Part shown: one piece after another, positions 16,346-45,230 of the stretch
How the letters are laid out: each line of letters begins with the position of its first letter
Numbering within the stretch: position 1 is the stretch's first letter
DNA from: Candidatus Brocadiaceae bacterium
GTDB lineage: Bacteria > Planctomycetota > Brocadiia > Brocadiales > Brocadiaceae
Reading direction: 5' to 3'
DNA length: 45,890 bases
NCBI GenBank assembly: GCA_015661205.1
Contig: JACVXV010000002.1
Span: 1-45,890 of the forward strand
The notes under the pieces: model-generated
Told to the model about the DNA's origin: nothing
Databases searched by the model: none
What the model saw: the letters and a program-made list of their open reading frames with translations, nothing else
Program-made: the position numbers and the translations under genes

Positions 16346-17287
16346 ATGGCACATGATATTTTACTGGAGAGTGGAACAAATGAGGCGGAAATTGCTGAGC
16401 TTATAGTTGGCAGTCAGCACTTCGGCGTGAACGTTGTAAAGATTAAGGAGTTTGTCCAGTACGACCGGCTGACCGTTACAAAGCCGCCCGGCAGGCATTC
16501 CTCCGTACAAGGGATATTCTTGTTGCGCGGCAAAACCGTTCCGCTCATCGACCTCAACGCGCATCTCGCTATTAAGGCAGAAAAGCTAACGACTACGCGC
16601 ATTGTCGTAATTACCGAATTCAACAGTATTGTCATGGGATTCATCATTGATGCGGTTGATCGTATTCACCGTGTATCGTGGAAAGACATTCAACCGTTGA
16701 GCGCCATGCTTCAGGCGCACCCTTTACCCGTTACCAGTTCTGTAAACATAAAAGGCACGGAAATCATGATGCTTGATCTTGAGCGTATTGTGGGGGAAAT
16801 TATCCCTTCTGCAGGGTTTGGCGCTCCGGTAGTCAATCCCAAACTTATTGAGGTCAGCAAAGAAGAGGCACGCAAGGCATACAAACTTTTGTTTGCCGAA
16901 GATTCCAATACGATCAGATCTCATGTGACAAAAGCGCTTAAGGCTGTCGGTTATATCAATATAACGGGTTATGAAAACGGTCAGGACGCCTACGAAGCCA
17001 TTATTGCACTGCAAAAACAGGCGGAAGTTGAAGGACGTAAAATAAGCGACTTCATATCCTTGGCAATTTTAGACATTGAAATGCCGCAACTGGATGGATT
17101 AACGTTATGCAAGAGGATAAAGTATGACCTTGGCCTGACAAGCGTTCCCGTTTTGATATTTTCATCCCTGATAACGGAGCAAATGGCTATTAAATGTGAA
17201 AAAATGGGGGCAGATGGATATACAACAAAACCCAGCATGGAACATCTTATTGAGATGATTGATAAGTTTTGTTTTAAGAAGGGATGA
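16346..17287 (+). CDS. cheV: Chemotaxis coupling protein CheV (CheW domain plus receiver)
   Basis: A 313-residue, two-domain protein. Residues about 15-155 are a CheW-like coupling domain (FGVNVVKIKEFVQYDRLTV, GIFLLRGKTVPLIDLNAHL, MLDLERIVGEI) that links chemoreceptors to CheA. Residues about 178-310 are a response receiver with the acid pair E185/D186, phospho-acceptor D243 in LAILDIEMPQLDG and K295 in YTTKPSM. CheV adapts the signalling array through phosphorylation of its receiver. A strong AAGGAGG site lies 8 bases before the ATG. No other che gene is in the window, so it must work with a CheA encoded elsewhere. Confidence 0.94.
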   Translation: MAHDILLESGTNEAEIAELIVGSQHFGVNVVKIKEFVQYDRLTVTKPPGRHSSVQGIFLLRGKTVPLIDLNAHLAIKAEKLTTTRIVVITEFNSIVMGFIIDAVDRIHRVSWKDIQPLSAMLQAHPLPVTSSVNIKGTEIMMLDLERIVGEIIPSAGFGAPVVNPKLIEVSKEEARKAYKLLFAEDSNTIRSHVTKALKAVGYINITGYENGQDAYEAIIALQKQAEVEGRKISDFISLAILDIEMPQLDGLTLCKRIKYDLGLTSVPVLIFSSLITEQMAIKCEKMGADGYTTKPSMEHLIEMIDKFCFKKG

Positions 17288-17534
17288 TTGTGCATCCTTA
17301 GTACGTTGCGGAAAACCCACCCCTGCACGATGTGTAGGGACTTGATGAGGCTATGTATATTTCGGAGCGTTGCAAGCCGCAAAACGTTCGGTTCAGGCTA
17401 CAAGCATGAACCGTCCGGCTGTTGATGTAGGGACACGGCGCCCGTGTCCCCGGCGCGAATACGAATAGATCGCCGAAGGCCAAATTTACGCCGTATAGAA
17501 ATTTCAAAATAATCTCGTTGCGCGGGGGGCATCC
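17288..17534. repeat. Repeat-filled gap, left part
   Basis: No gene. The stretch contains AACCCACCCCTGC (partial copy of the element at 7104), a GTAGGGACACGGCGCCCGTGTCCC hairpin near 17428-17452, and GATCGCCGAAGGCCAAATTT. A GCGCGGGGGGCATCC half of the cloverleaf hairpin ends exactly where the next element begins. Confidence 0.55.
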
Positions 17535-18114
17535 CATACGTGTTAATCTCTTACAAATAATATTTTGATATTTTCAGCAAAAATATTTTTACCCATAAGA
17601 GAAGTAATCACACAAAGGCACAGAGGCACAAAGAATTACAAAAAAGATAAATTGCGATAAATCTTTGTGCCTTCGTATCTTTGTGTGAGAAAACAGAGAT
17701 TTTTCCTCTTCCGATTCCGACTCGTTCGAGTTAGGAAATGAAAAGGCGGACAAACTCAGCCTAACCGTATTAGCAATACAGCCCCAAAGGGGCGCAATAT
17801 GACAGCCCAGGGCAACGCCCTGGGTTCTGCATTGATAGCAAAACCAGCCCTGAAAGGGCGATATAAAGGTATAAACCAACGTGTAATTTCGTATCACGCC
17901 CTTTCAGGGCTTGTTGGTTTTTCCGTGTCCCCCAGGGCGTTGCCCTGGGCTCAGCTACTTCGCCCCTTCAGGGCTAACAAAAACAAGGGTTTGGTGGTAA
18001 TTATAGGTTTCTTAACTTAACACGTATGCCCTCCCCCACTAACGGGAGACATGTTGGAAGCAACATAAACAAGGGTTTCACGGTGATTATTGATTCCTTA
18101 GCTTAACACGTATG
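17535..18114. mobile_element. Composite MITE-like element with CATACGTGTTAA ends inside a hairpin repeat
   Basis: The left end is CATACGTGTTAA (17535-17546) and the right end TTAACACGTATG (18103-18114). The flanks are GGGGGCATCC (17525-17534) and GGGTTCATCC (18115-18124), a likely 10-base target duplication with two changes. Rejoining the flanks restores the GCGGGGGTTCATCCCCCG arm of the cloverleaf repeat. The interior holds a CACAAAGGCACAGAGG inverted pair (17612-17695), a mirrored three-hairpin array (17781-17975) and a second internal TTAACTTAACACGTATG (18010-18026). It has no coding capacity. Confidence 0.6.
17781..17975. repeat. Three-hairpin element, inverted pair
   Basis: The left half reads GCCCCAAAGGGGC, then CCCAGGGCAACGCCCTGGG, then GCCCTGAAAGGGC. 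The right half mirrors it: GCCCTTTCAGGGC, CCCAGGGCGTTGCCCTGGG, GCCCCTTCAGGGC. The right half matches 19955-20037 in order and orientation. Confidence 0.75.
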
Positions 18115-18223
18115 GGGTTCATCCCCCGTTTGGCGTGCATACACAGAAAGGAACAAGGCTGAAGCCTTGCCCTACGTGTGAAAACACAAAATGATCTAAA
18201 GATTTTTTTTAAAGGACTTTTTT

Positions 18224-19399
18224 ATGAACAAAATATATATGGACAATGCATCGGGCGCCCCCATGCATCCACAAGCCATTGAGGCCATGATCCCATTTTT
18301 AAAAGATGGGTTTGGCAATCCATCCAACCTTCACCAATTCGGCAGGATGACAAACGAGGCAATCCTGACGGCAAGAGGGCAGGTAGCCAAGCTCATCAAC
18401 GCAAAACCGGGTGAGATAATATTTACATCGAGCGGCACGGAGTCCAACAACTTTGCCCTGAAGGGTATTTTGGAGTCTCACAAAAAAAAGGGCAACCACA
18501 TGATTACTTCGGAAATCGAACACTTTTCCGTCCTCAACCCCTTAAAAACGCTGGAAAAGTCGGGGTACGAAGTGACCTACGTCCCCGTTGACAAGCATGG
18601 AATGGTGAACCCAGACGACGTCAAAAAGGCTATCAAGCCCACAACGGTGATGGCGTCTATTATGTACGCCAATGGAGAAATCGGATCCATTGAACCGATA
18701 AAAGAAATTGGCGCAATTACGCGGGAAAAAGGCATCGTTTTCCATACGGACGCGGTTGCTGCCGTGGGGCAGGTACCCGTGAACGTTGCAGAGGTACAGG
18801 TGGACGCATTAAGCATGTCGGCCAACCAATTCGGGGGGCCTTCGGGAATTGGCGCGCTTTACCTGCGAGAAGGAATGAGAATACTTCCCTTATTACAAGG
18901 AGGCGTGCAGGAAGGCGGGCGCAGGGCGGGTACGGAAAACATCACCGGTATTGTCGGTATGGGTAAGGCGGCGGAACTGGCAAATGCAGAGATGCAGCAG
19001 CGGGTAGATAAAGTAAGGGAATTAAGGGATCGGTTAAAAGACGGCATTTTAAAAAACATCGGCAACGTGTTTCTTAACGGCCACCCGACAAACCGCCTTC
19101 CCGGAAACCTTAGCTTGTGTATTGAATTTATTGAAGGCGAGTCCGTCCTCTTGTTTTTAGACATGCAGGGCATTGCCGTGTCGAGCGGTTCCGCATGCAC
19201 GTCGCGGTCGCTGAAGGCGTCGCACGTCATCATGGCCACGGGCGTGGATGCCGCGCTCGCCCAGGGAACCATACTCTTCAGCCTGGGCGTCAACAACTCG
19301 GACGCCGACATCCAATACGTCCTGGAAAAGCTGCCGTCCATCGTGAACAGGCTGAGGGAAATGTCGCCACTCTACAACACGAGAGGTAAGAAATCTTAA
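18224..19399 (+). CDS. NifS/IscS-like cysteine desulfurase homologue lacking the PLP lysine
   Basis: A 391-residue class V aminotransferase-fold protein aligned along its length with NifS/IscS: YMDNASGAPMHP at the N-terminus, GTESNN for the phosphate loop, H100 in SEIEHFSV stacking on the cofactor, D176 and Q183 in HTDAVAAVGQVP, RRAGTEN, and the mobile loop SSGSACTSRS with the persulfide Cys at 325. The normal SAHKxxGPKG that holds the Schiff-base lysine reads S-A-N-Q-F-G-G-P-S-G here, so the lysine position (202) is glutamine, codon CAA at 18827-18829. Archaeoglobus fulgidus IscS is a known case with Asp there. Activity as a desulfurase is therefore uncertain. No nifU/iscU neighbour is present. 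Confidence 0.85.
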   Translation: MNKIYMDNASGAPMHPQAIEAMIPFLKDGFGNPSNLHQFGRMTNEAILTARGQVAKLINAKPGEIIFTSSGTESNNFALKGILESHKKKGNHMITSEIEHFSVLNPLKTLEKSGYEVTYVPVDKHGMVNPDDVKKAIKPTTVMASIMYANGEIGSIEPIKEIGAITREKGIVFHTDAVAAVGQVPVNVAEVQVDALSMSANQFGGPSGIGALYLREGMRILPLLQGGVQEGGRRAGTENITGIVGMGKAAELANAEMQQRVDKVRELRDRLKDGILKNIGNVFLNGHPTNRLPGNLSLCIEFIEGESVLLFLDMQGIAVSSGSACTSRSLKASHVIMATGVDAALAQGTILFSLGVNNSDADIQYVLEKLPSIVNRLREMSPLYNTRGKKS

Positions 19400-19477
19400 C
19401 CATCAGGAATTTCTTCTTCACAAAGGATACCGGGTCTGATAGAATGGCAAAAATTTTTTTAGTGAAATGAGAAAGGT

Positions 19478-19926
19478 CGCCAACGGCGACGGCTTTTCGT
19501 GTGGCGCCGACCTTCATGGTCGGCATTGCTGAGAATGCACGCCAAGCGGGGGATAAACCCCATAGGTGTTAAGTTAAGAAACACAACCCGAACGAATTGA
19601 GGGAGTGAAGTGAGGACATCGCTGGCATCTCAGTACGATTTAACCGTGCATTGAATTACGAATATCGAACAAGGAATTTCGAGGTAGGAAGTATGGATAC
19701 GGAGCGCCATTTCACGACACAAACCGTGACTAAACGCTAATACTTTTCTTTGCTTCGAGTTTGCCAGCATTCATTGGCGGTTATCGGGGAAATATCTTTT
19801 ATCATTCGACATTCGATATTCCTTGTTCGATATTCGCTTTCGTGTTAACCGCAACTTACGGTTGCCATTAGTGCTTAAAGTGCTTTCCTTAACTTAACAC
19901 GTATGGAATAAACCCCCTGGCTACAG
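19478..19926. repeat. Inverted cloverleaf-like repeat interrupted by a MITE-like element
   Basis: GTCGCCAACGGCGAC, then GGCGCCGACCTTCATGGTCGGC, then a GCACGCCAAGCGGGGG arm runs to 19560. The arm resumes at 19906 as AATAAACCCCCTGGCTAC. This is the reverse complement of the repeat at 16178, split in the loop of its C/G arm. Confidence 0.65.
19561..19905. mobile_element. MITE-like element, 345 bases, copy 1
   Basis: Ends are CATAGGTGTTAAGTTAAG (left) and CTTAACTTAACACGTATG (right), imperfect inverted repeats. Flanks GGATAAACCC (19551-19560) and GAATAAACCC (19906-19915) match at 9 of 10 bases, a probable target duplication. Inside, TTCGATATTCCTTGTTCGAT-like sequence occurs in opposite orientations near both ends. 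No coding frame is evident. A homologous copy in inverted orientation lies at 31493-31800. Confidence 0.7.
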
Positions 19927-19950
19927 AATTACCCGTTATTTTATACCTTT

Positions 19951-20040
19951 ATGTCGCCCTTTCAGGGCTTGTTTTGTTAATAATACCATAGCCCAGGGCG
20001 TTGCCCTGGGCTATGGTATTTCGCCCCTTTGGGGCTTGCA
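19951..20040. repeat. Three-hairpin element upstream of the conserved unknown gene
   Basis: GCCCTTTCAGGGC, a 17-base perfect stem (ATACCATAGCCCAGGGC, loop GTT, mirror; 19983-20019) and GCCCCTTTGGGGC follow each other. They end only about 20 bases before the ATG at 20059, so they could affect its expression. Confidence 0.75.
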
Positions 20041-20058
20041 TTTTAAAAAAATATATCC

Positions 20059-21183
20059 ATGACCCACGCATATACACCCGGTTTACGCATATCAGAGAAG
20101 AAGGTGGTCACGAGCCACCGCTCGCTTCCCTTGCTTGGCGACGTTATTGTAAAAAAGGGGGACATCCTCAAGGCGGAGGACGTTGTGGCACGGGCGCATC
20201 TGCCCGGTAAGGTGCAGGCCATTAATGCCGTTAACCGTTTAGGTATCCAGCCCAAAGACCTCAAAGAATACATGCTCAAGAAGGAAGGCGATCCCGTCCA
20301 GAAGGACGAACCCATCGCCGAGACCAAGCCATGGGTGAAAATGATGAAATCGGTTTTGCATTCGCCGATTACCGGTACCATCGAGACCATTTCCACGGTG
20401 ACGGGACAAGTCCTTTTGAGAGAACCGCCAAAACCTATCCAGGTGCTTGCATACATAGACGGCGCCGTTATCGAGGTGATGGAGAAGGAAGGGGTTGTTA
20501 TGGAGGCGATGGCCACCTACATCCAGGGCATCTTCGGGGTTGGCGGCGAGGCCGTCGGCGAGCTTGTTATTGCCGTGGAGAAGCCGGGTGACATTCTAAC
20601 GAACGGCCATATCCTGCCGGGACACAAAGACAAGATAATCGTAGGCGGCGCCTTTATTCAGCACGATGCGATTAACAAGGCGCAAAAGATAGGGGTCAAA
20701 GGCATCATTACCGGCGGGTTTGACGACGAAGACCTGCGAAAGCTCCTCGGATACGACCTCGGCGTGGCAATCACCGGATCGGAAGAAATCGGCATCACCC
20801 TTATCATGACGGAAGGGTTCGGCAATATTCAAATGGCGCAAAGAACCTTTGATCTCTTAAAATTCCGTTCCGGCGCCAAGACGTCTATTAACGGTGCTAC
20901 TCAGATTCGGGCAGGCGTTGTAAGGCCGGAAATTATTATCCCCTATACAGACAAGTCATCCGGCGAAGAGGTCACTCAGCCCATCGACAGAGGCATGGAC
21001 GTTGGGGACCCGGTAAGGGTTATCCGTGTGCCGCATTTTGGAAAGATTGGAAAGATAAAGAACCTTCCTTTCGCCCCTTGCACTATAGAGACAGAGGCAA
21101 CGGTTCGTACACTTGATGTGGAGTTTCTTGATGGTTCCACGGCAACGGTACCACGTACAAACGTAGAGATGATTGAAAAATAG
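20059..21183 (+). CDS. Conserved protein of unknown function with lipoyl/RnfC-like barrel-sandwich and KOW-like parts
   Basis: 374 residues, no signal peptide or membrane span. Residues about 12-60 (SHRSLPLLGDVIVKKGDILKAEDVVARAHLPGKVQA) and 85-115 (KSVLHSPITGTIETISTVTGQVLL) have the glycine-spaced pattern of a barrel-sandwich hybrid fold as in biotinyl/lipoyl and RnfC N-terminal domains. No conserved lysine in an MKM motif is seen, so it is not a biotin carrier. The middle has GGAFIQHDAINKAQKIGVKGIITGGFDDEDLRK, and the C-terminal about 55 residues (GDPVRVIRVPHFGKIGKI..VPRTNVEMIEK) look like a KOW/SH3 barrel. Function is unknown. No ribosome binding site is evident, and the upstream space is a hairpin repeat. 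Confidence 0.7.
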   Translation: MTHAYTPGLRISEKKVVTSHRSLPLLGDVIVKKGDILKAEDVVARAHLPGKVQAINAVNRLGIQPKDLKEYMLKKEGDPVQKDEPIAETKPWVKMMKSVLHSPITGTIETISTVTGQVLLREPPKPIQVLAYIDGAVIEVMEKEGVVMEAMATYIQGIFGVGGEAVGELVIAVEKPGDILTNGHILPGHKDKIIVGGAFIQHDAINKAQKIGVKGIITGGFDDEDLRKLLGYDLGVAITGSEEIGITLIMTEGFGNIQMAQRTFDLLKFRSGAKTSINGATQIRAGVVRPEIIIPYTDKSSGEEVTQPIDRGMDVGDPVRVIRVPHFGKIGKIKNLPFAPCTIETEATVRTLDVEFLDGSTATVPRTNVEMIEK

Positions 21184-21621: not shown

Positions 21622-22424
21622 ATGCCAGAACCTACGATTAAGTGCCCAAAGTGCCAAACCGAGTTTCAAAAACGTTACTTGCGTTGCACAAAATGCAATG
21701 AGATCGGCATCCATAAACTATGCAAGTATGTAGGGTTTTGCGATCGTTCACTCAAAATATTGAAAGACAAAAGTATTTGGTTTCCAACTGGAGAATCATT
21801 AAACGACCCATTTGAGTTTAGTTTTAATCTTTCTGAAAAGCATGTCGGGGGAGTTAAGATAAATGACCAATCTCGCGAAGAAGCGATAATTGATATGAAA
21901 CAAATGGGGGGGTGCTTTCACTTAGCGAAATTAACGATAATATCTTGATGTGGTCGCATTATTCATATTCGCATACGGGTTTTTGTATCGAATTTGAGCG
22001 AACAGGCAGTAACGATTTGGGAAATGGGAAGTATTGTATACCTGTCCTGTACGATGATCCCCTTCCAACATTTAAACTGATGGAACTGTCCGATCCAGCG
22101 GTTGTCTCAAAGATATTAACTACAAAATCATCGCATTGGTCATATGAAAGAGAGTGGCGCATTCTAAGTAAAGACGGTAATCAAGAACACCCTTTACCAG
22201 GCAACATCACGGGAATAGTGTTTGGCTGCCAGATGCCTAGTGATAATCGTCTAAAAATCGCAGATATTCTCGGTAACACTGTCATATATATGCAGGCCAC
22301 TAAGAGTGAAACCAAGTTTGCTATTGATATAAAGCCTGTTTCGTTATCTGATTTAACAAGTGATGTAGAGTTGGTCAAGCGAATGAGAACCTACCCCTGT
22401 TCTCCCTCCCAGGATGGGGACTAA
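21622..22424 (+). pseudogene. DUF2971 family protein with N-terminal zinc ribbon, frameshifted in a G7 run
   Basis: Two overlapping frames form one protein. The first, from 21622, has a CPKC...CTKC zinc ribbon, then the DUF2971 start (HKLCKYVGF..LKDKSIWFPTGESLNDPFEFSF). The second, from about 21912, continues with the family core (VLSLSEINDNILMWSHYSYSHTGFCIEF, YDDPLP, KSSHWSYEREWRIL). The break is at a run of seven G (21906-21912); one extra G would give QMGGVLSLSE and a continuous reading frame. DUF2971 proteins are uncharacterised and often found in accessory or defence regions. The gene may be dead, phase-variable, or a homopolymer miscall. Confidence 0.75.
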
Positions 22425-43532: not shown

Positions 43533-45230
43533 ATGAAAATAAAGGCTGTAATCTTTGATCTGGATGATACCCTCTACGACTGCACCGGCTCGCTTATTGA
43601 TGCATCACGGCGGCGCGCGGCCAAGGCAATGGTTGAAGCAGGGTTGCCCTGCAGCGAAGAAGAGGTGTATGTACTGCAAAAAGAACTTACCGAAAAGCAT
43701 GGCCCTTACCACCTCGTGTTCAATGAAATCGTGAACAAATATGGGGCGGATAGAAAGCTGGTCACCCTTGCTTACAAGGCATACAATAGCAGTGAAGTTG
43801 TCGATATCAAACCGTTTCCCGACGTCATACCAACCCTGCAGGAACTAAAAGGCAAAGGCCACAAGCTCTTTCTGTTAACGGTGGGTGTGTACGAGCGACA
43901 GGAGAAGAAGATACAAATCCTGGGATTAAAACCATACTTTGATGAAATAATCATTAATGACCAGGAAATAGGCCTTCGCGTGGAAGATTGCATTCTTGAT
44001 ATCCTTGGCAGGCATTCCATCAGCACGGGAGAAACCGTCATGGTGGGAGATAGGGTGCGGGATGAACTACGGATCGCTAAATCCATGGGCATGACAACCA
44101 TCCAAATGCTGCATGGCAGGTTCAAGAATGAACCCGCCGATAATGGACACGACAAACCGGACTACAAGGTAAAACGCATCTTCCAGATACCCACGATACT
44201 CCAGCTTAATAACATGGGGAAAATACCAGATACGCTTAAGATTGTCGCCATCGGCGGAGGCACGGGACTGCCCATTTTGCTGGAAGGCGCAAAGACGTAC
44301 AGCAGGCACCTTACCGCCGTAGTCGGTGTGACGGATTCCGGCAGAAGTTCAGGCATTTTGCGGAATGAGTTTAAAATGCTTCCCCCTGGTGATGTGAGAA
44401 ACTGCCTTGTGGCGCTTTCTGAAACGGAAGAGCAGGAACGGGAACTGTACCAACTGTTTCAGTACCGTTTTAACAGGGGGTCGCTGGAGGGCATGAGTCT
44501 TGGAAACCTACTGATGACTGCGCTGACGGACATTACGGGCAGTTTTGAACAAGCCATTAAGACCGCCAGCAGAATACTCCATATTCGTGGAAAGGTGCTT
44601 CCTTCCACCCTGACCGATACGCACATCTGCGCGAACCTGGAAGACGGCACTTACGTTGAGGAGGAATTCAACGTGCGCGGGTTAGGCAAGTCGCCCATAA
44701 AGGAAGCCTTCCTGAAAAACGCAGACGCGGTGGCGCCCTCGGAGGCGATAGAGGAAATCCTGAAAGCAGACATCGTTGTTATCGGCCCTGGCAGCCTTTA
44801 TACAAGCTTGGTAACAAACATACTGGTACAGGGCGTCAGAAATGCAATCCGGCAAAGCAAGGCAACGAAGATTTATATATGCAATATCGTTACCCAGCCC
44901 GGCCAAACGGACAAGTACAATGTTTTCAACCACATTAGCACGATTGTCAAGTATTTAGGGGAAGGGGTGCTGGACTACGTCCTCGTGAACAACAATATCC
45001 CCCGCAAATCAATCCTTGAAAGATACCAGAAAGAAGGGGCAGACATTGCGCAGATGGATGAAAGCGTCTCTCACCTGCAAGTAAAAGTCAAAATGGCCGA
45101 TCTGGTTGAAGACCTTGAGCAAAAACGCATCCTATGGGAAAAGCAAGATCTGATCCGCCACGACCCAGACAAGTTGGCCGACGCGATTTGCCGGGTATAT
45201 GCAAACTTGCCGCCACAGACGGCGCAATAA
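43533..45230 (+). CDS. HAD hydrolase fused to YvcK/CofD-like domain
   Basis: 565 residues in one uninterrupted frame. Residues 1 to about 215 form a HAD-superfamily phosphatase: FDLDDTLYD (nucleophile Asp9 and Asp11), KLFLLTVG, and VMVGDRVRDELRIAKSMGM with the metal-binding Asp pair. This resembles pyrimidine 5'-nucleotidase-like enzymes. From about 235 a complete YvcK/GlmR-like domain follows: LKIVAIGGGTGLPILLEGAK, VGVTDSGRSSGILRNEF, LPPGDVRNCLVALS, SLGNLLMTALTDITGSF and VVIGPGSLYTSLVTNILV. YvcK proteins bind UDP-sugars and steer carbon to cell-wall precursors. The fusion suggests a phosphatase acting on or gated by the same metabolite. It is probably co-transcribed with endonuclease V. Confidence 0.92.
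   Translation: MKIKAVIFDLDDTLYDCTGSLIDASRRRAAKAMVEAGLPCSEEEVYVLQKELTEKHGPYHLVFNEIVNKYGADRKLVTLAYKAYNSSEVVDIKPFPDVIPTLQELKGKGHKLFLLTVGVYERQEKKIQILGLKPYFDEIIINDQEIGLRVEDCILDILGRHSISTGETVMVGDRVRDELRIAKSMGMTTIQMLHGRFKNEPADNGHDKPDYKVKRIFQIPTILQLNNMGKIPDTLKIVAIGGGTGLPILLEGAKTYSRHLTAVVGVTDSGRSSGILRNEFKMLPPGDVRNCLVALSETEEQERELYQLFQYRFNRGSLEGMSLGNLLMTALTDITGSFEQAIKTASRILHIRGKVLPSTLTDTHICANLEDGTYVEEEFNVRGLGKSPIKEAFLKNADAVAPSEAIEEILKADIVVIGPGSLYTSLVTNILVQGVRNAIRQSKATKIYICNIVTQPGQTDKYNVFNHISTIVKYLGEGVLDYVLVNNNIPRKSILERYQKEGADIAQMDESVSHLQVKVKMADLVEDLEQKRILWEKQDLIRHDPDKLADAICRVYANLPPQTAQ

Follow-up and report, generated by a model that had tools for sequence, protein, structure and literature searches.

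The window, that is, the whole 45,890-nucleotide stretch of Candidatus Brocadiaceae DNA analysed here, encodes a member of the NifS/IscS fold family (class V aminotransferase) that lacks the PLP-binding lysine and is probably, judging from its sequence and by analogy, a bacterial counterpart of the inactive IscS of Archaeoglobus fulgidus (AfIscS): a non-desulfurase partner or platform for IscU that would be fed by sulfide or by TusA persulfide. In the alignments, the residues predicted to hold and cleave cysteine have been lost together, and the sulfur-handling cysteine and the IscU partner have been kept. The source genome (G000) is an assembly of 3.89 Mb in 292 contigs; family and order assignments in what follows are taken from the genome search. 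The features of the window that bear on this reading are listed below by window position, with residues of the protein set against those of E. coli IscS.

17780..17975, no strand: inverted repeats upstream of the iscS-like gene (repeat search)
18211..18216, + strand: likely ribosome-binding site AAAGGA, with the ATG 7 nt further on (direct sequence reading)
18224..19399, + strand: iscS-like gene, lysine-less NifS/IscS (class V aminotransferase fold), 391 aa (ORF list, Pfam/NCBIfam, AlphaFold)
18446..18448, + strand: Asn75 at the E. coli Asp79 site; Asn in every lysine-less protein (alignment)
18521..18523, + strand: His100, equivalent to E. coli His104; the same residue throughout the lysine-less and the lysine-bearing group (alignment)
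18749..18751, + strand: Asp176, equivalent to E. coli Asp180; likewise the same throughout the two groups (alignment)
18758..18760, + strand: Ala179 (GCT) at the E. coli Gln183 site, PLP contact lost (alignment)
18812..18856, + strand: PLP-lysine loop SMSANQFGGPSGIGA, compared with SFSGHKIYGPKGIGA in E. coli (alignment)
18824..18829, + strand: Asn201 (AAC) and Gln202 (CAA), at the sites of E. coli IscS His205 and Lys206 (alignment; Brocadiaceae orthologues)
19196..19198, + strand: Cys325 (TGC) in SSGSACTS, the catalytic/persulfide Cys328 of E. coli IscS, retained (alignment)
19274..19276, + strand: Leu351 at the E. coli Arg354 site, substrate-carboxylate Arg gone (alignment)
19400..20058, no strand: no recognisable gene where relatives carry iscU and tusA; inverted repeats inside (sequence, tblastn)

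The window protein matches Pfam PF00266 with 257.5 bits and the NCBIfam NifS model TIGR03402 with 521.7 bits, narrowly missing the curated cut-off of 530.75; the lysine-bearing NifS paralogue encoded on contig C20 of this genome reaches 620.2 bits with the NifS model. The AlphaFold model of the window protein has a mean pLDDT of 84, with low confidence at the Cys loop and residues 224-235, and superimposes with a TM-score of about 0.9 on NFS1, E. coli IscS and AfIscS (0.91 to A. fulgidus IscS 4eb5_A). Among the residues that mark a cysteine desulfurase, Lys206, Arg354 and Gln183 are absent from the window protein and the mobile-loop cysteine is present.

A first-pass annotation of the sequence had read the loop as S-A-N-Q-F-G-G-P-S-G with a CAA glutamine codon at 18827, and this reading is borne out: positions 18812-18856 encode S-M-S-A-N-Q-F-G-G-P-S-G-I-G-A within an intact ORF, and Gln202 (codon 18827-18829) aligns with E. 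coli Lys206 and Asn201 with His205. The alignment likewise agrees that the SSGSACTS Cys loop, the stacking histidine (His100) and the aspartate (Asp176) are kept. The glutamine cofactor contact, which had also been described as kept, is lost, as E. coli Gln183 aligns with Ala179; the window protein's own residue 183, four positions past Ala179, is a glutamine and may be the source of the error. Changes that had gone unlisted are those of Arg354, which presumably binds the substrate carboxylate, to Leu351, Asn155 to Gly151 and Asp79 to Asn75. The broader statement that selection has mostly preserved the active site holds for the Cys loop, for His104 and Asp180 and for some of the phosphate contacts, and fails for Lys206, Gln183, His205, Arg354 and mostly Asn155, which have been lost jointly.

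The same losses recur among relatives of the window protein. Alignment of 146 homologues with E. coli IscS (1p3w) and AfIscS (4eb5), both reference sequences having been checked residue by residue, divided them at the Lys206 position into 91 lysine-less proteins, from several bacterial phyla together with the archaeal AfIscS, and 55 lysine-bearing ones; because the lysine-less proteins were gathered mostly by similarity to the window protein and are mutually related, the counts apply to a single related group and not to independent events. Arg354 is retained in none of the 91 lysine-less proteins, Gln183 in one, His205 in nine and Asn155 in 16, whereas each of these residues is present in all 55 lysine-bearing proteins. 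Cys328, His104 and Asp180 are found in every one of the 146. Nine columns are differently conserved between the groups, six of which (79, 106, 183, 205, 206 and 354) lie in the pocket or adjacent to it, and the C-terminal SPLY of IscS is present in 89-90 of the 91 lysine-less proteins.

From sequence and model, the dimer probably retains the IscS fold and the IscU-binding C-terminus, and the mobile-loop Cys325 would reach the cluster forming on IscU, where it would either act as a temporary ligand or bring in persulfide sulfur. With the lysine lost, along with the substrate-carboxylate arginine and other cofactor contacts, cysteine should, in all likelihood, not be the source of sulfur on the window protein, which by analogy with AfIscS and the K206A variant of E. 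coli IscS would be without desulfurase activity. Sulfur would instead be drawn from free sulfide or from persulfide delivered by TusA, with a DsrE2-like protein also taking part in some lineages; TusA persulfide is a candidate source because of the neighbouring genes in relatives. Sulfide can feed cluster assembly via IscU in anaerobic E. coli without IscS (PMC13015791). A sulfur-binding scaffold was one of three roles proposed in the first-pass annotation, and as an IscU partner it is the best supported of them, given the linkage to iscU and tusA.

This linkage was counted by tblastn at loci with at least 1450 nt of downstream sequence, comprising 73 lysine-less and 31 lysine-bearing genes. 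An iscU gene adjoins 58/73 lysine-less genes versus 10/31 lysine-bearing ones, tusA adjoins 56/73 versus 0/31, and a dsrE2-like gene 20/73 versus 0/31. The 71 IscU proteins encoded beside lysine-less genes all keep Cys37, Asp39, Cys63, Cys106, Tyr3 and Lys103, the last being a residue whose substitution (K103E) disrupts binding of IscU to E. coli IscS (PMC2854127). Every adjacent TusA protein retains the cysteine of its CP motif. In the window's genome neither partner gene lies beside iscS, with iscU at C39:1247-1672 and tusA at C65:130-360, and the operon logic is therefore borrowed from relatives; several other genomes of the order are likewise without an adjacent iscU.

The usual iscS-iscU-tusA cluster is thus split over three contigs in this genome, and inverted repeats flank the window iscS on both sides (window 17280-18223 and 19400-20058); that the repeats caused the separation of iscS from iscU and tusA is a guess. 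Beyond the downstream repeats, a 374-aa ORF at 20059-21183 matched nothing in Pfam or NCBIfam at E 0.001, a pair of overlapping ORFs that lie in different frames at 21622-22424, the second with a DUF2971 match, resembles one frameshifted gene, and a single ORF at 43533-45230 appears from its sequence to fuse a HAD-type hydrolase to a YvcK/CofD-like domain. In several anammox genomes a Uma2-family gene (PF05685) is located between iscS and iscU (L041:6186-6740, L094:5485-6039 and other Brocadiaceae loci). In Chloroflexota and Aminicenantes (flanks of loci L043-L093), lysine-less isc clusters often lie near genes that resemble, by sequence likeness, those for rubrerythrin, flavodiiron protein, thioredoxin reductase and 2-oxoacid:ferredoxin oxidoreductase.

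A narrower form of the preferred explanation is a sulfur relay in which TusA, having received its sulfur from DsrE2, a rhodanese or a second desulfurase, would load persulfide onto Cys325 or IscU, with the window protein acting as a docking hub. Such a relay, which would run opposite to that of E. coli, where IscS charges TusA, is a serious possibility, if still a doubtful one. The adjacency of tusA and dsrE to lysine-less genes and to none of the lysine-bearing genes speaks for it, as do the CP-motif cysteine of the adjacent TusA proteins and the invariance of Cys325; however, TusA could instead accept sulfur for another pathway, and the TusA-docking residues known from E. coli (Trp45 and Asp52) are conserved in neither the lysine-less nor the lysine-bearing group. 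For this reason these residues were not used as proof of TusA binding, and handover at that site is unsupported.

It is also conceivable that the protein is an enzyme working with non-covalent PLP, capable of slow cysteine desulfuration or of some other PLP reaction. Because His104 and Asp180 never vary, the pocket may still bind PLP non-covalently, and the lysine-less proteins also share Thr243 (90/91) and Thr or Ser at position 76 (89/91); the K206A variant of E. coli IscS holds some PLP and forms adducts (PMC9978102). That variant nevertheless has zero desulfurase activity (PMC9978102), AfIscS with similar losses has none either (PMC7585200), and the lysine-less proteins have lost Arg354 in 91/91 cases, Gln183 in 90/91 and His205 in 82/91, so that an enzymatic role of this kind is unlikely. 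The first-pass suggestion of a non-covalently held cofactor accordingly remains tenable for the cofactor, and cysteine turnover is unlikely.

A further proposal, that the lysine-less protein is a dedicated partner to which the cell's own canonical NifS would pass sulfur, draws on the genomes in which both occur. The window's genome carries the lysine-bearing NifS of contig C20 near a NifU, so that its cell need not rely on the lysine-less protein, and a lysine-bearing copy is present in other anammox genomes as well. Outside the anammox bacteria, however, six of 22 genomes with the lysine-less gene contained no other IscS/SufS-type protein (PF00266, E 1e-40); in two of the six the chromosome is a single contig (CP070819 and CP070693), and the rest are drafts, in which the absence carries less weight. 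The next PF00266 matches in the six genomes are much weaker and are presumably class V aminotransferases of the serine-glyoxylate type. Dependence on a second desulfurase, which the first-pass annotation had also offered, is therefore improbable as a general role, and pairing with the C20 protein is distinctly so here. A second lysine-less IscS paralogue was observed in two other families of the order (L136-L141), its loop containing SHTF, SQPF or GHAF and its Cys loop SGSACSS; several of the genomes that encode it also carry both an Asn-Gln copy and a lysine-bearing copy.

Close relatives, which the first-pass annotation had singled out for checking, share the Asn-Gln pair: the loop was read in 28 other Brocadiaceae orthologues, and every one of them has the pair, with glutamine and not lysine at the critical site. 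Lysine in close orthologues, named in that annotation as a refuting outcome, was not encountered. Of the 14 orthologues checked for codons, 13 encode the Gln by CAA and one by CAG. Three Brocadiaceae genomes of 58-91% completeness (G208, G209 and G225) yielded no orthologue at the cut-off. Among some 50 proteins from other phyla at 54-61% identity, most also have Asn-Gln, including proteins of Dehalococcoidia and other Chloroflexota, Aminicenantes, Aerophobota, Elusimicrobiota, a Deltaproteobacterium and others, and a few relatives in this range have Ala, Ser, Thr or Pro at the lysine site. As dS to the window protein is saturated, dN/dS was taken from pairs within Brocadiaceae, where it is 0.04-0.08; this strong purifying selection in the family is in keeping with the earlier view that a lysine-less NifS/IscS has been maintained by selection. 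A decaying pseudogene or a sequencing error, to which the split of iscS from iscU and tusA in the window's genome might point, was ruled out for practical purposes by the intact ORF, the orthologues' Asn-Gln pair, these ratios and the recurrence of the pattern across phyla.

Lysine-less, inactive IscS is already known from archaea; the bacterial clade, its full residue signature and its link to TusA look new. In the open-access literature searched, no report was found of a lysine-less IscS in anammox bacteria or Dehalococcoidia, nor of a broad bacterial group combining the full signature with a tusA/dsrE2 link. The same residue losses mark a conserved group in anammox bacteria, Chloroflexota, Aminicenantes, Elusimicrobiota, Aerophobota and others, usually beside iscU and tusA, and the automatic annotation of these lysine-less genes as cysteine desulfurases is probably wrong. 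Anammox metabolism leans heavily on iron-sulfur and haem proteins, which makes the route of sulfur physiologically interesting in these bacteria, and the building of Fe-S clusters by anaerobes without a cysteine desulfurase becomes testable in bacteria. Tentatively, and with more doubt than attaches to the window protein itself, an ISC pathway independent of cysteine might operate in many anaerobic bacteria, anammox bacteria and Dehalococcoidia among them, with a dead IscS and IscU taking persulfide from TusA (and DsrE2), opposite to the IscS-to-TusA direction of E. coli, the dead IscS being the sole IscS/SufS-type protein in some genomes.

Among characterised systems, E. coli IscS and human NFS1 have in common with the window protein the fold, the Cys loop, His104, Asp180 and the C-terminal SPLW/SPLY region at the IscU interface; however, they desulfurate cysteine and hold Lys206, Gln183, His205, Asn155 and Arg354, all five of which are missing from the window protein. 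The minimal iron-sulfur (MIS) system (PMC12442378) resembles the proposed arrangement in that MisS and MisU form an IscS-/IscU-like pair without the remaining ISC operon, but its MisS has been assigned to the type I cysteine desulfurases. IscS1 of Methanosarcina acetivorans (MA0808) is also without the lysine, is paired with IscU and has been detected in the proteome (PMC7585200), although it is archaeal and its Cys loop reads STGSACFS.

The archaeal AfIscS (PDB 4eb5/4eb7/4hvk), put forward as a precedent in the first-pass annotation on account of the aspartate at its lysine site, has proved an apt one. Like the window protein, with which it shares 45% identity, it is lysine-less and keeps the Cys, His104 and Asp180, and both are altered in the same way at E. 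coli positions 79, 106, 183, 205 and 354, including Gln183 to Ala, His205 to Asn and Arg354 to Leu; over 12 compared sites AfIscS reads THNDASNDKSCL and the window protein THGDASNQRTCL. AfIscS differs in having Asp199 in place of Gln at the lysine site and in keeping Asn155. A quick tree from which the trait columns had been omitted placed 34 bacterial lysine-less proteins in one group (SH-aLRT 92) with AfIscS outside it, suggesting separate losses of the lysine in AfIscS and in bacteria; a tree forcing all lysine-less proteins into one clade was equally good (AU p 0.55), hence no claim is made for separate losses. AfIscS forms a complex with IscU, the gene for which lies on contig C39 in the window's genome and adjoins the lysine-less gene in most relatives, and in the crystal structure the cysteine of AfIscS ligates a [2Fe-2S] cluster on IscU (PMC7585200).
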